64,000 nucleotides of DNA from Phycisphaerae bacterium RAS1 (lineage in GTDB: Bacteria > Planctomycetota > Phycisphaerae > UBA1845 > Fen-1342), in the NCBI GenBank assembly GCA_007859745.1, contig SMLU01000001.1:682001-746000 (forward strand), written 5' to 3'. Position numbers and translations under genes: made by a program. Positions 16,412 through 31,728 of the stretch are shown here, in pieces. Positions within the stretch are counted from its first letter, which is position 1. Each line of letters starts with the position of its first letter. Below the pieces are notes generated by a model, which saw nothing but the letters and a program-made list of their open reading frames with translations, made no database searches and was not told the origin of the DNA.

Positions 16412-20026
<3,615 letters not shown>

Positions 20027-20097
20027 GGCGGTCCATACTCCGTTCCGCGAAGCGCCCGACCGCAGCGGTGATGCCGCCGCGACGGGCAAAGTCTGGA

Positions 20098-27522: not shown

Positions 27523-30500
27523 TCATACCTCGATCAACTGCCCGTGCCGCTCGCGCGAGACCTCCTCGCGCAGGTTCATTTCGATCATCGAAAGCTTCTG
27601 CTCAATCTCGGCCATGCGCCGCTTGCGGCTGACGAGCCGCTCGCGGTAGCGCTTCAGGAAGTAGCCGATCGTCTCGATGCGAATCTTGATCGACCCGGAC
27701 GGCTTGTTCTCGTCGATGTCCTTGAAACAGAAATAGGGCGTGCCGCTGTTTTCGATCACTTCCTCGACCACCGTGTAGATCGGAGCGTCATGGCCGCACT
27801 TGAAGCTCGACAGCTCCAGCGCCACCAGGTTTGGATGCCGGGCGGCGTACTTGGCCGCCCAGACCTTGCGGCTGGTGTTCTCGCTGTAGCTGTTCTTCCA
27901 GGCGTCCTCGATCGAGAGCGGGCTGCGGAAATCGCGGGCGCGCACCTCGTCGCCGAAGAGCCGCTCCAGAATGTCCGCATCAAGCGGCAGGCAATCCTGC
28001 GTGAGAATGGGATAGCCGAGCTTCTGAAGCTCGTCGCAGATTTCGTGATTCAGCCCGGGGTCGTTGTGATAAGGCCGCGCCAGCACGACCACCGCCAGCC
28101 GGTCCTCGCGCTCAATCGCGTCGAGCACTTCGCGGGCTTTCTCACGCATGCGACGGTCGTAATCGGCCAAAGCGGCCAGGCCGGCCTGCACGGCGCGGCG
28201 GCTCTCCTCCTCGCTGACGCCGATTTCATCCTTGAAGGCGTTGTACATCTCGCGGGCCGCCAGTAGCGGCTTGCACAGATCGACCAGGGGGTTGACGTAC
28301 TTCACGCCAAGCTGGGCGAAGAGGTCGCTTTCCTTGGTGAACGCCGCTTTCACGGCTTCGGGTGTGATCGCGACGGTCGGACAGGCGCGGTGCGACTGAC
28401 ACCCTTCCAGAAAACTCGGCAAGGCGTCGATCATTGGGAAAAAGATGCAATCCAGCGGCGGCACGCTGCGTGTAGGGTGGGCCGTGCCCACCTCTTGCTG
28501 CGCCCCGGGCGCGGCTGGCTCATGCTGGGCATGGCCCACCCCACAGGCCTGTTCCCTGTTCCCTGTTCCCTGTTCCCTCTTCCGCGGCGTGTGCTTGTGA
28601 TAAAGGAGGTTGTGCACATGCGGAATCCCGATCTTGCTCGGGAAGCAGGGATCGATCGAGCCGCGTTTGGCGCCTTCCTTGTACATCTCCTCGCTCGTGT
28701 AATCCGAATAGACGAGGTTGTCGGCCTTGATGCCGAGGCTCTCGAACCACGCCATGAAGAACGGCGCCGTGCTGTAAATGTTCAGCAGCCGCGGAATGCC
28801 GACGCGATACGTCGCCCGCCGCCGCATGAGTTGCGCGCGTGACGCCCCATGCGCCAGCTCGCCGTCAGCAGCGCCGTTGTTTCCTTGTTCCTTTGTTTCC
28901 TTGTTCCCCTTCCACGGAATCCTCAGCCACGAAAGCCGCGACGGCCTTTCGGCGGGAATCGGATCGGCGACGCTTGCCGCTCCGGTCGGCTTGAAGACGT
29001 CCTTCGCGGCAATCTCAACCAGGTTCGGATTGGCTTTTTTGACCGCGTCCAGTCCGGCCTTGATGTCGCGCATGTCGTTGACGTCTTCGACCGTGCCCTT
29101 CTCGCAGGTCGCGATGATGAGACGCTGCTCCCCTTCGAGCAGCGGCACCTTCGACTTGCTCTTCTTCACGGATTCCGCCGTGCCGCGCTTGATGCGCGAC
29201 GGCCGGCCGTCTTCGCCCGGCACGCGGCTGGTGTGCGTAACCAAGTCAATGCCCGATTGTGAATTGCCATTGTCGGCCGCGGCCACCACCGGCAGCGCGA
29301 CCCCCGCGCCCCGCGCCCCGCGCCCTGCGCCCTCCCCCGCAGCGGGCGACGCGCCCTCACTCTCCGATTTCACATCGATGAACGTGCGCAGGCATTTGTT
29401 CTTGCAGAAGTAGCAGCGCGTATTCTCGTCGCGCGTCGTGCGATACTGAATCTTGCTCACGCGCTCCAGCCCGATGAACGTCGTCTTCAGCCCCTGCTCG
29501 TCCCACAACCGGTGCGCTTCGATCGCGCAGCCGATCGCCCCGCTTTCGCCGCAATGCTCGTGAACAATGACATTCGGCGTCAGGCCGGTGCCGGGGAAGC
29601 GCGACTCGATGAAATCCACCTGCGATTTCACCGCCGCCAGGTTGTGCTGCGTGCCGCCTTGCAGGACGAAATTCGTCCCCAGCTTGGCGATGTTCGGAAT
29701 CTGCGAGACGTAGAGCCAGATGTTCTTGGGCAGCACCGCCGCCAGCCCCGCCATGATTTCGTGCGGCTGCCAGCCCTGCCGCTGGAAATCGACGATGTCG
29801 GACTGCATGAAGACCGCGCAGCCATAGCCGAACTCCGGCATGGCTTCAGCTTCAAACGCGCGGTCGGCGAATTGCTCGACCGGAATGTTGAAGGTCTGCG
29901 CGGTGGATTGCAGGAAGTAGCCGTTGCCCGCCGAACACTGCGTGTTCAGCTTGAAGTCCTTCACCTGGCCGTGCTTCAGAATGATGAGCTTGATGTCCTG
30001 TCCGCCCACGTCGACGATCACGTCAGTCTGCGGATAGAAGTGCAGGCAGGCCTCGGTATGGGCGACGGTCTCGACCAGGGCCGTGTCGCCGCCCAGCACG
30101 TCTTTGAGAATGTCCTTCGCATAACCGGTCGTGCCGACGCCGAGGATTTCGAGCGTGCAGCCCTGTTCGGCCATCTGCTTTTCGATCTTGCCGATGATCT
30201 CGATCGTGTCCTCGATCGGATTGCCCTTTGAGAGCTGGTACGACTTCGCGATCACCTTCTTGTCGACGTCGAGCAGCACGCCCTTGGTGCTGGTCGAGCC
30301 GCCGTCGACGCCCAGAAACGCCCGCACGCGCGTGCCCGAGGCGTATTTCGCGGGCGACCAGGGCTTCTTGCGGAAGCGTTCCTTGAACTCGGCCAGGTCG
30401 TCGGCGCCTTTCGAGAGCCCCTTGGCGCCACGCGAGAGTTTTTCCTCGATCCGGCCATGCGTGACGTACCAAAGGAGATCGTCCGGCCCTTCGTACACGC

Positions 30501-31728
30501 CCGTGTCCGGATCGTCCGCGATTTCGATCTTGCCGAACTCGACCGCGCCCAGGGCCGCGAAATACTGCGCGTTGTCCGGCACGATGATCAGATCATCCGC
30601 CGCCTTGCGCATCTGCTCGGGCGTGGCGTCGTGGCCGCAGTAATAGCCCTCGGGAAGCTGCACGCCGCGCTCGCGCCAGATCGTCGGAATGTTCGCCCGC
30701 CAGCATTCGAGCATGCCGCGGATGTACGTATTCGGCCCGCCCAGGAGCAGCACCTTCGGCCGCAGTGTGTGACCGCGCGTCAGCACCGACAGGTTCTGCT
30801 GAATGATCGACTCGAACAGCGACGCCATCAGCTCGTCCGACGGCACGCCGGTCTTCTGCAACCCATTGATGTCCGTCTCGGCGAACACGCCGCACTTGCC
30901 CGCGACCGGGTGCAGCTTCAGGCCGTAGTAGCCGCACTCGGCCAGTTTTTCGGCGGGGATTTTGAGCTTGGCGTTGATCTTGTCGATAACCGCGCCGGTT
31001 CCGCCGGCGCACTTGTCGTTCATCGACGGGATTTTTTTCTTCTTGCCGCTCTGCTCTTCGGTTTTGAAGACGATGATCTTGGCGTCCTGCCCGCCGAGCT
31101 CGACCACCGACTGCACGTCGGGATAGAGCTTCTCAACCGCCAGCGAGACCGCGTTCACTTCCTGCACGAAGCGGCCGCCGATGCGGGCGGCGATGCCGCT
31201 GCTGCCCGAGCCGGTCAGAAAGATGCGGACGGCGCTCCGCGGAAGCGACGATTTCGCAGGGTGGGCCGTGCCCACCACGGGCGTAGGGTGGGCATTGCCC
31301 ACCATTTGGTCCGCTTCCGCCGCCGGCGGTGAATGGTGGGCGTGCCCCACCCTACCGTCGTCCGGGACGATCCCGAATTCGGCCTCGATCCGCCGCAGGA
31401 ATTCGAGCGTCTTCTCCGGCTGCTTGGTGTCGTGCCGCTGATAATCCTTCCACAGAATTTGGTCGGTCACGGGATCAACCACGACCGCTTTCACCGTCGT
31501 CGAGCCGATGTCGAGGCCGATCAAGAGCCCCTGCGGATGCTCCGGCGTCGCGGCAAACGGCCGCCGCGTGCGCTGCGGACGCTCTTTCGAGCTGCTCTTC
31601 GGCGTGGCGGAGATATTCAGCTTCACCAGCGAGACATTGTCCGTCGGCGTGGCGGAAGACTTAGTCCCGCAGCCGCCGCTGCTGCATCCGCCGTGAAGAA
31701 AGCGCGTGATCGGACGACGCATCAGCAC
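27523..31728 (-). CDS. Giant acyl-CoA dehydratase activase (two BadF/BcrA ATPases + DUF2229), PlsA-like
   Basis: 1401 aa. The first ASKHA ATPase domain starts at LIGLDIGSTTVKAVV (about 68) with cluster cysteines in NDKCAGGTG and AGKCGVFAE. The second starts at FLGVDGGSTSTKGVL with NTQCSAGNGYF and YGCAVFMQ. The C-terminal third is DUF2229/HgdB-like (RVGIPRLLNIYST, DPCFPSKIGIPHVHN, LARPYHNDPGLNHEI). Such proteins drive ATP-dependent electron transfer to a 2-hydroxyacyl-CoA dehydratase-type partner. The plasmalogen-forming PlsA/PlsR of clostridia have this architecture, so reduction of an ester-bound lipid is a fair inference. Four repeat-derived in-frame inserts interrupt it, all in linkers. 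The N-terminus has a Cys-rich GGCSSGGCG. Confidence 0.85.
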   Translation of the reverse strand: MLMRRPITRFLHGGCSSGGCGTKSSATPTDNVSLVKLNISATPKSSSKERPQRTRRPFAATPEHPQGLLIGLDIGSTTVKAVVVDPVTDQILWKDYQRHDTKQPEKTLEFLRRIEAEFGIVPDDGRVGHAHHSPPAAEADQMVGNAHPTPVVGTAHPAKSSLPRSAVRIFLTGSGSSGIAARIGGRFVQEVNAVSLAVEKLYPDVQSVVELGGQDAKIIVFKTEEQSGKKKKIPSMNDKCAGGTGAVIDKINAKLKIPAEKLAECGYYGLKLHPVAGKCGVFAETDINGLQKTGVPSDELMASLFESIIQQNLSVLTRGHTLRPKVLLLGGPNTYIRGMLECWRANIPTIWRERGVQLPEGYYCGHDATPEQMRKAADDLIIVPDNAQYFAALGAVEFGKIEIADDPDTGVYEGPDDLLWYVTHGRIEEKLSRGAKGLSKGADDLAEFKERFRKKPWSPAKYASGTRVRAFLGVDGGSTSTKGVLLDVDKKVIAKSYQLSKGNPIEDTIEIIGKIEKQMAEQGCTLEILGVGTTGYAKDILKDVLGGDTALVETVAHTEACLHFYPQTDVIVDVGGQDIKLIILKHGQVKDFKLNTQCSAGNGYFLQSTAQTFNIPVEQFADRAFEAEAMPEFGYGCAVFMQSDIVDFQRQGWQPHEIMAGLAAVLPKNIWLYVSQIPNIAKLGTNFVLQGGTQHNLAAVKSQVDFIESRFPGTGLTPNVIVHEHCGESGAIGCAIEAHRLWDEQGLKTTFIGLERVSKIQYRTTRDENTRCYFCKNKCLRTFIDVKSESEGASPAAGEGAGRGARGAGVALPVVAAADNGNSQSGIDLVTHTSRVPGEDGRPSRIKRGTAESVKKSKSKVPLLEGEQRLIIATCEKGTVEDVNDMRDIKAGLDAVKKANPNLVEIAAKDVFKPTGAASVADPIPAERPSRLSWLRIPWKGNKETKEQGNNGAADGELAHGASRAQLMRRRATYRVGIPRLLNIYSTAPFFMAWFESLGIKADNLVYSDYTSEEMYKEGAKRGSIDPCFPSKIGIPHVHNLLYHKHTPRKREQGTGNREQACGVGHAQHEPAAPGAQQEVGTAHPTRSVPPLDCIFFPMIDALPSFLEGCQSHRACPTVAITPEAVKAAFTKESDLFAQLGVKYVNPLVDLCKPLLAAREMYNAFKDEIGVSEEESRRAVQAGLAALADYDRRMREKAREVLDAIEREDRLAVVVLARPYHNDPGLNHEICDELQKLGYPILTQDCLPLDADILERLFGDEVRARDFRSPLSIEDAWKNSYSENTSRKVWAAKYAARHPNLVALELSSFKCGHDAPIYTVVEEVIENSGTPYFCFKDIDENKPSGSIKIRIETIGYFLKRYRERLVSRKRRMAEIEQKLSMIEMNLREEVSRERHGQLIEV
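28465..28590. repeat. In-frame R5 palindromes plus GGGAACA minisatellite in the activase
   Basis: Contains GTAGGGTGGGCCGTGCCCAC, a second GGGCATGGCCCACCCC unit and tandem CTGTTCCCTGTTCCC repeats. It encodes about residues 1046-1087 of the activase (KREQGTGNREQ ... VGHAQHEPAAPG ... VGTAHPTRS), between LLYHKHTPR and LDCIFFPMIDALP. It has no stop and is frame-neutral. Confidence 0.85.
28850..28925. repeat. In-frame GGAAACA minisatellite in the activase
   Basis: Degenerate TTCCTTGTTCCTTTGTTTCC units encode residues about 934-959 (KGNKETKEQGNNGAAD...), between RLSWLRIPW and YRVGIPRLLN. This is low-complexity sequence not expected in the family. Confidence 0.75.
29230..29345. repeat. In-frame GGGCGCA minisatellite in the activase
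   Basis: CCCGCGCCCCGCGCCCCGCG units near 29308-29340 encode GEGAGRGARGAG, followed by a loosely structured stretch to about residue 832. It sits in the linker after the Cys pair CYFCKNKCLR. Confidence 0.7.
31250..31370. repeat. In-frame cluster of three R5 palindromes in the activase
   Basis: GGGTGGGCCGTGCCCACC, GTAGGGTGGGCATTGCCCAC and a reverse-oriented GGTGGGCGTGCCCCACCCTAC-type unit follow each other. They encode residues about 119-159 (DGRVGHAHHSPPA ... VGNAHPTPVVGTAHPAK) inside the first ATPase domain, between EAEFGIVPD and VRIFLTGSG. Two of the three have the GTAG foot. Confidence 0.9.

Follow-up and report, generated by a model that had tools for sequence, protein, structure and literature searches.

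In-frame insertions of GTAG-tagged palindromic repeats and of candidate embedded REP-associated transposases in genes of Phycisphaerae bacterium RAS1 and other bacteria

Results

REP units in an acyl-CoA dehydratase activase gene

The window analysed here is a stretch of 64,000 nucleotides from Phycisphaerae bacterium RAS1 (contig SMLU01000001.1, positions 682,001 to 746,000), and coordinates given without a locus name refer to it. It contains a gene for a fused acyl-CoA dehydratase activase whose reading frame carries copies of a repetitive extragenic palindrome (REP) at two sites. REPs are mobile palindromes that are spread by REP-associated tyrosine transposases (RAYTs), which are His-x-His/Tyr single-strand transposases. 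The features of the gene are as follows.

27523..31728, minus strand: host gene, fused acyl-CoA dehydratase activase of 1401 aa, with two BcrAD_BadFG stretches and DUF2229; TIGR00241
31256..31276, plus strand: REP unit 1, GCAGGGTGGGCCGTGCCCACC, one mismatch to the consensus; its minus-strand reading is VGTAHPA
31283..31303, plus strand: REP unit 2, GTAGGGTGGGCATTGCCCACC, exact consensus, in tandem with unit 1
31335..31355, minus strand: REP unit 3, inverted and facing units 1 and 2, two mismatches; reads RVGHAHH
31256..31355, minus strand: REP insert 1, about 38-41 residues, missing from 14/14 aligned close orthologues; predicted disordered loop
28472..28544, minus strand: REP insert 2, an inverted pair (28472-28492, plus; 28524-28544, minus), residues 1061-1085

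The initial annotation had recognised a repeat block in this frame, and the block was confirmed as three GTAG REP palindromes at 31256-31355 that are open in the 1401-aa open reading frame (ORF). It had described three facing palindromes; there are three units, but only unit 3 faces the others. A second pair, which had been placed near residue 1050, is present in the same protein, at residues 1061-1085. The label 'PlsA' is supported by no analysis, the protein being a fused activase by its BcrAD_BadFG, DUF2229 and TIGR00241 matches.

The consensus of the 21-bp palindrome in this gene is GTAGGGTGGGCNNTGCCCACC. Each unit consists of a 5' tag plus a hairpin (GTAG+GGTGGGC-NNT-GCCCACC), which fits a GTRG tag on a hairpin of 20-40 bp. 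The pattern GTGGGCATTGCCCAC has seven matches in the window at up to two mismatches, against 0.17 expected, and none of 100 shuffles reaches seven. In the minus-strand frame the block reads GRVGHAHH...VGNAHPTPVVGTAHPA, and the translation of insert 1 is GRVGHAHHSPPAAEADQMVGNAHPTPVVGTAHPAK.

The initial annotation had supposed that normal activases lack insert 1; in a 15-sequence alignment it is missing from all 14 close orthologues (L022-L035). The tblastn matches of orthologues are interrupted at residues ~122|161, which corresponds to insert 1, and most of those of the close orthologues are interrupted again at ~1048|1090, which corresponds to insert 2. A search of its own genome gives a single match for the activase. 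In an AlphaFold model made from the 15-sequence alignment (mean predicted local distance difference test score, pLDDT, 79), insert 1 has a pLDDT of 26-34 and is predicted to form a disordered loop that connects a helix to a strand.

The GTAG REP family and its partner RAYT

At up to two mismatches, the GTAG REP gives 58 forward and 52 reverse matches in the genome (5.50 Mb, 7 contigs), some sites being counted on both strands since the unit is palindromic; a reversed control pattern gives none. In the DNA sampled for the survey below, 100 non-overlapping sites were found at the same threshold. Among 78 clusters there are 29 convergent pairs at up to four mismatches (8 genic, 21 other), and inverted partners in genes lie 31-91 bp apart, start to start. 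The paired units have the anatomy of REPINs (REP doublets forming hairpins) or BIMEs (bacterial interspersed mosaic elements). The same REP is found at up to one mismatch in 35 of 61 genomes, the genome of the window included, with 1 to 236 counts in each.

In a relative (G013), a stand-alone RAYT frame of 212 aa (L257; NF047646, 183.6 bits) carries this GTAG REP on both flanks, and is thus a REPtron. When loci from the window's genome are compared with it, the most similar are L009 (62.5% identity) and L008 (52%); L008 has degenerate GTAG REP copies (4 mismatches) on both sides. A cognate RAYT beside a GTAG REP was also sought in the window's own genome, where the 20 Y1 loci show no more than a REP several hundred bases away from L020 and degenerate copies (4-5 mismatches) near L001, L008, L010 and L012; the cognate RAYT was recognised through G013 instead. 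Presumably a RAYT moved the GTAG REPs.

Three Y1 transposase matches on G000:C1 (2614693, 2616271 and 2617849; loci L015-L017 and L106) have identical scores and a spacing of 1578 bp. With an inverted Y1 match at 2619153, they may form a tandem RAYT array.

REP positions and reading frame

The survey DNA consisted of the stretches around the listed REP places plus the window (630 kb, 83% coding), and covers about 100 of the 110 genome REP matches at up to two mismatches. At up to four mismatches it contains 128 sites in 78 clusters. Coding segments were called with a phased Markov/Viterbi script, and a cluster was classed as edge if within 60 bases of the end of a coding segment (L085 and L094 are among these). 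Sixty-five clusters have a copy at up to two mismatches: 11 lie inside coding segments, 8 at the edge and 46 outside. REP insertions in coding DNA are strongly depleted.

All 11 genic sites keep the frame open. They fall in 10 genes, namely those for the activase (two sites), a UvrA-like protein, DNA polymerase I, an ABC transporter, a GT87 glycosyltransferase, a protein kinase, two molybdopterin (xanthine-dehydrogenase-like) enzymes, a heparinase-like protein and isoleucyl-tRNA synthetase (IleRS). At the GTAG REP insert of IleRS, relatives' matches are interrupted as well (about 982-989|1016-1021). At up to three mismatches, and read along the gene, forward units are in phase 1 in 11/11 cases (p = 5.6e-6 against 1/3, or 4.9e-4 if the stop phase is left out). 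Of the reverse units, 10/11 are in phase 2. The distance between facing units is 1 mod 3 in 7/8 genic pairs versus 6/17 other pairs (Fisher p = 0.03). Copies with more than three mismatches were excluded from the phase counts; one of these is a forward copy at phase 0 (L063), the other 4-mismatch copies being at the preferred phases. The GTAG unit has TAG in frame at forward phase 2. Because forward phase 0 and all reverse phases are stop-free, stop avoidance alone is insufficient to account for the phase bias.

Flanking ORFs of 10 same-strand REP clusters that have coding sequence near by on either side were compared by Pfam, and none of the 8 informative clusters splits a gene. In these 8 the two flanks are different genes, and in L098 each flank starts with its own N_methyl motif; the other two (L070 and L057) are uninformative, having no Pfam family on one flank. 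With the frame traced back to the previous stop, 8 of 67 GTAG copies provide the in-frame stop of an adjoining coding stretch. At L062 (5008-5073), a REP pair between convergent genes gives a TAG stop to both neighbours.

The initial annotation had proposed selection for stop-free, frame-neutral elements. Genic insertions in this genome indeed do not disrupt frames at the rate expected by chance. However, the forward unit has a TAG in one of its three phases, and the copies that serve as a neighbour's stop contradict a stop-free element. That proposal is therefore only partly supported. Purifying selection by the host on which insertions survive, with a phase preference beyond stop avoidance, explains the pattern better than selection for an element designed to leave frames intact.

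Other REP families and the origin of the phase preference

A GTGG-tagged REP, GTGGGACGGGCGTCTCGCCCGTC, is free of stops in all six phases. Its forward copies in genes are in phase 1 in seven genes (16 copies) and phase 0 in one gene. In a second GTAG family, found in the gene for glycine cleavage P protein (GcvP), forward copies are in phase 0 in two genes (9/10 copies) and phase 1 in one. The preferred phase therefore belongs to each REP family, and a universal reading phase for all REP families was rejected by these counts. Low-complexity GTGNREQ and similar repeats also lie in frame in several REP-bearing proteins (P0001, P0002, L052, L083), often adjoining the REP insert.

Several points weigh against the reading by host selection. 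The reverse GTGG copies are less tidy (phase 2 in four genes, phase 0 in two), the GcvP-type family departs from phase 1, and one genic GTAG pair (L082) violates both the phase and the spacing rule. Phase and pair spacing are linked and so are not independent tests. The phase survey comes from one genome and a home-made gene finder, and the absence of inserts from relatives was compared for two hosts, the activase and IleRS. The phase preference may reflect a codon-phase-biased target instead of selection on the peptide.

If the transposase chose a motif that lies in one codon phase of GC-rich genes, selection on total length alone would suffice. Two different REP families sharing forward phase 1 would be expected from such a choice, and once a unit has entered at phase 1, length by itself fixes the reverse unit in phase 2. 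However, the GcvP-type family uses phase 0, and no motif upstream of the tag is obvious by eye, no statistical motif test having been applied. Target choice as the whole explanation is possible but doubtful, and selection by the host on surviving insertions is retained as the preferred reading.

RAYT domains within enzymes of the same genome

A Y1_Tnp search of the genome gave three matches inside ORFs of more than 1200 aa. The window itself contains a RAYT domain within GcvP.

16412..20089, minus strand: GcvP (glycine cleavage P protein), 1225 aa, with an in-frame insert
17045..17767, minus strand: in-frame insert of GcvP, residues ~775-1015, at the point where the GcvP matches of relatives are interrupted (~774|1016), flanked by the second GTAG REP family, which reads VARPPSA / RPGAAGL
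17165..17623, minus strand: RAYT domain within GcvP, HUH and Tyr motifs intact; NF047646, 91.1 bits (cut-off 80)

In-frame RAYT domains are also found in IleRS (L092, 1436-aa frame, residues ~277-441) and in PurH (L133, 961-aa frame), with NF047646 scores of 72.5 and 71.3 bits versus the cut-off of 80. Valyl-tRNA synthetase (ValRS; L102, 2735-7423, plus strand, 1563-aa ORF) carries a more divergent in-frame RAYT between many tandem PLPHGRGSE repeats, at a site other than the one occupied in the ValRS of other Phycisphaerae. The profile built from 12 embedded domains (profile A1) matches the solved TnpA-REP chain 4er8 at 1e-8.

Judged by eye in the loci of this genome, the insert arms of IleRS, PurH and GcvP contain GTRG REPs, those of IleRS reading in frame as GTGVSPV / GRDARPT; no GTRG hairpin is obvious in the ValRS arms. 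Many relatives have an IleRS without the RAYT insert, their matches being interrupted at about 233-245|441-462, and the GcvP of relatives, where matched, also lacks the insert (interruption about 770-781|1009-1016). G008 and G011 have an insert at the same IleRS site and G010 has one at another IleRS site. Among the scored part of the first-look candidates, this genome showed no further copy of IleRS, GcvP or PurH. In a model of the PurH fusion, which is poor overall (mean pLDDT 62; predicted template modelling score, pTM, 0.36) and was used for the RAYT core and linkers alone, block means are 67-93 in the RAYT core and 22-39 in the linkers on both sides.

Distribution of embedded RAYTs

Profile A1 was run in two surveys, one of 114 genomes from the order and one of 397 from the class. 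The class survey gave 70 matches at 1e-30 in 56 genomes, and 341 of the 397 genomes have no match. Open frames of at least 476 aa contain 59 of these 70 strong matches, the other 11 lying in frames of 219-418 aa; the profile was made from embedded copies, and the embedded share is therefore not unbiased. In the order survey, weaker matches to ordinary Y1 transposases are mostly in frames of 160-300 aa, with six at 442-1583 aa. Among the named loci, the best 80 of at least 546 comprise 59 embedded copies (by frame and host match) and 21 stand-alone ones. The order, class and named-locus surveys overlap in genomes (L177, for example, is G008), and their counts are not additive.

Hosts were assigned by homology for 27 loci (L147-L173; four served as their own reference), with L174-L176 outside this assignment. 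Pfam matches in these loci, or in the same gene, confirmed PurH, leucyl-tRNA synthetase (LeuRS), RarA/MgsA and an MmeI-type DNA methyltransferase as hosts. ValRS is the host in 18 named loci, at one site (L186 by Pfam), the DUF1156 / N6_N4 methylase group in 10 (8 scanned) and RdgB/Ham1 in 5 (3 scanned). Further hosts are type ISP (2) and Eco57I (1) proteins, alanyl-tRNA synthetase (2) and Hsp70/DnaK (1). By record titles, carriers beyond the Planctomycetota include Verrucomicrobiota, Acidobacteriota, Chloroflexota, Elusimicrobiota and the strain Desulfoferrobacter suflitae DRH4, in which the host of the embedded RAYT is a DUF1156 protein (L212). In most of the sufficiently long loci, homology to the host protein picks up again, in frame, on either side of the RAYT; the exceptions are truncated by the end of the contig or locus or by N. 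One DUF1156 ORF (L207, 2834-6307) has both a GIY-YIG domain and a RAYT.

Phylogeny and catalytic residues

A tree was made from 94 domains, with domains shorter than 110 aa and near-identical copies excluded; it has few alignment columns and many weak forks. The IleRS copies cluster together (10 rows, support 100/98), as do most PurH copies (14/17 rows, 97/91) and most ValRS copies (15/18 rows, 94/77), and no stand-alone row falls inside any of the three. Stand-alone copies are mixed in among the RAYTs of the remaining hosts, and this suggests repeated origins of embedding. The tree does not support a single origin, as several host groups need more than one change.

The catalytic His, His and Tyr, read by alignment column, are kept in 71/71 embedded rows of the tree set, a count that is partly built in, since some loci were found with a pattern containing HUH and the rest by profile or BLAST. 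The 12 domains of profile A1 have 37-68% identity with the first. Seven more relatives have long PurH frames. Six of them carry a different Y1 type at the same PurH site, with the motif 'WLLTWTTYG..' and a Tyr motif ending in Q (L262, L263, L265-L268; G014, G007, G018, G036, G032, G039); by motif only, this type resembles class 3 as set out in the text of Quentin et al. (PMC6006769). Two transposase types thus share one PurH site. The PurH copy of G018 has lost the first catalytic His (DRVH) with its frame still open, although a sequencing error is possible, and the seventh relative (G015) has a linker alone at this site. The near-universal presence of the catalytic residues suggests that most copies are still used or were recently active.

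Such conservation, in spite of the divergence among the A1 domains, could also mean that the embedded RAYTs are domesticated, with the host using the nuclease domain and the fusion itself being selected. The recurrence of the same PurH site in many genera and the tree groups made up of embedded copies only are consistent with this. However, the hosts are functionally unrelated (tRNA ligases, PurH, GcvP, Hsp70, methylases), most genomes of the class have no match, and the divergent G018 copy, unless misread, is open without its catalytic His. Domestication is therefore considered unlikely, and entry of RAYTs through the same filter as genic REPs is preferred.

Discussion

Comparison with known systems

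GTAG-tagged REPs, some of them intragenic, have been described from bacteria that include the PVC group (Di Nocera et al. 2013, PMC3733652). The elements studied here resemble them, as far as they are described there, in the GTAG tag plus hairpin, the inverted dimers, the association with RAYTs, and the copies within ORFs, where they code for 20-30 aa, in hosts such as uvrA and DNA polymerase I. The TAG of the REP serves as a stop codon both here and in other species (PMC3733652). The test of phase and of length modulo 3, the activase case and the whole RAYT within a host gene set the present work apart from the main-text passages of that paper. Rickettsia palindromic elements (Ogata et al. 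2000, 2002, as summarised in PMC10969869) are also in-frame palindromic repeats in unrelated protein genes; they differ in being about 150 bp long and of other sequence families, and in the passages of that summary an embedded transposase is not described.

The embedded domains match chain 4er8 by profile, and NF047646 with a score above the cut-off for GcvP and below it for IleRS and PurH. The HUH/Tyr enzymes of the TnpA-REP / RAYT superfamily are flanked by REPs in REPtrons (Quentin et al. 2018, PMC6006769). According to the same paper's text, RAYT subclasses have median lengths of 148-325 aa, and a few unexpectedly long RAYT proteins were discarded as gene fusions or annotation errors. Among the matches listed from open-licence PMC literature, subscription papers being outside this scope, there is no description of RAYTs embedded in housekeeping enzymes. 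The activase adds a further example to a kind of insertion that is already in print, and the embedded RAYTs represent a novel variant of it.

Inteins with homing endonucleases likewise place a nuclease-like domain in frame in conserved proteins, at recurrent sites. The embedded RAYTs share these features but have no splicing domain by Pfam in the hosts scanned, and the inserts appear to stay in the protein. The REP peptides and embedded RAYTs might nevertheless be removed by an intron- or intein-like process, the continuity of the frame then being incidental. Conserved enzymes are hosts of inteins too, and the insertions in IleRS, PurH and ValRS are at recurrent sites. Pfam finds no intein (Hint) domain in IleRS, PurH, GcvP, ValRS or LeuRS, however. 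Rfam at gathering cut-offs gives no intron family in the window, L092, L133 and L102, only one tRNA, and splicing of the inserts was rejected on this result. Excision at the RNA level would also need no open frames. Removal is thus highly improbable, and retention of the inserts in the protein is favoured.

That the long frames are an artefact of GC-rich DNA, the RAYT being a separate gene that shares the frame by chance, is scarcely credible: GC-rich genomes do produce long spurious frames, and six ordinary Y1 matches in the order survey also have long frames, but in most loci of adequate length the homology to the host continues in frame to either side of the RAYT, most ordinary Y1 transposases of the same genomes have frames of ~160-300 aa, and one embedded case occurs at 28% GC, though at a contig edge.

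A proposed common filter for genic REPs and RAYTs

The activase block is very probably a REPIN-like insertion of GTAG REPs, and the same filter on genic insertions very probably admits whole RAYT genes in frame. RAYTs would spread REPs to many places, and host selection would eliminate nearly all insertions in genes. The genic REPs that survive would be those whose added length is a multiple of three, that have no in-frame TAG, and whose peptide (RVGRAH / VGTAHPT) fits a surface loop; the residues that the REPs encode would then form a flexible, inert segment of the host enzyme. Whole RAYT genes, together with the REPs on either flank, would pass the same filter, to become separately folding domains on REP-coded linkers in essential enzymes. 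When a REPtron lands in frame in an essential gene, its own frame would join an indispensable one and could no longer be lost by frameshift, so that selection on the essential gene would protect the frame of the embedded transposase. The G018 copy, decayed yet still open, fits a REPtron frame that is held by an essential host frame.

Two points limit this account. A second copy of the host genes is unlikely, as judged from the part of the candidates that was scored, and the translation of the fusions as whole proteins, like their function, is proposed from sequence. Mobility of the embedded RAYTs, and benefit from embedding, are presumed.

On balance, we lean slightly towards a stronger statement, that some RAYT lineages gave up life as a separate gene and persist as in-frame internal domains of IleRS, ValRS, PurH, GcvP and other proteins. 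On their REP linkers they would be catalytically intact and shielded from frameshift and deletion, since loss of the frame would kill the host gene. Genic REPs of the activase type would be the small change of the same strategy.

Provided that the embedded transposases are produced and active, a live mobile-element nuclease is an internal domain of essential enzymes, which would help to address why RAYTs persist over long periods. Any REP-rich genome can serve to test the claim by its rules of phase and length. If the account is true, a transposase can persist without many copies and without protein splicing, and proteins of this kind have been discarded as aberrantly long.

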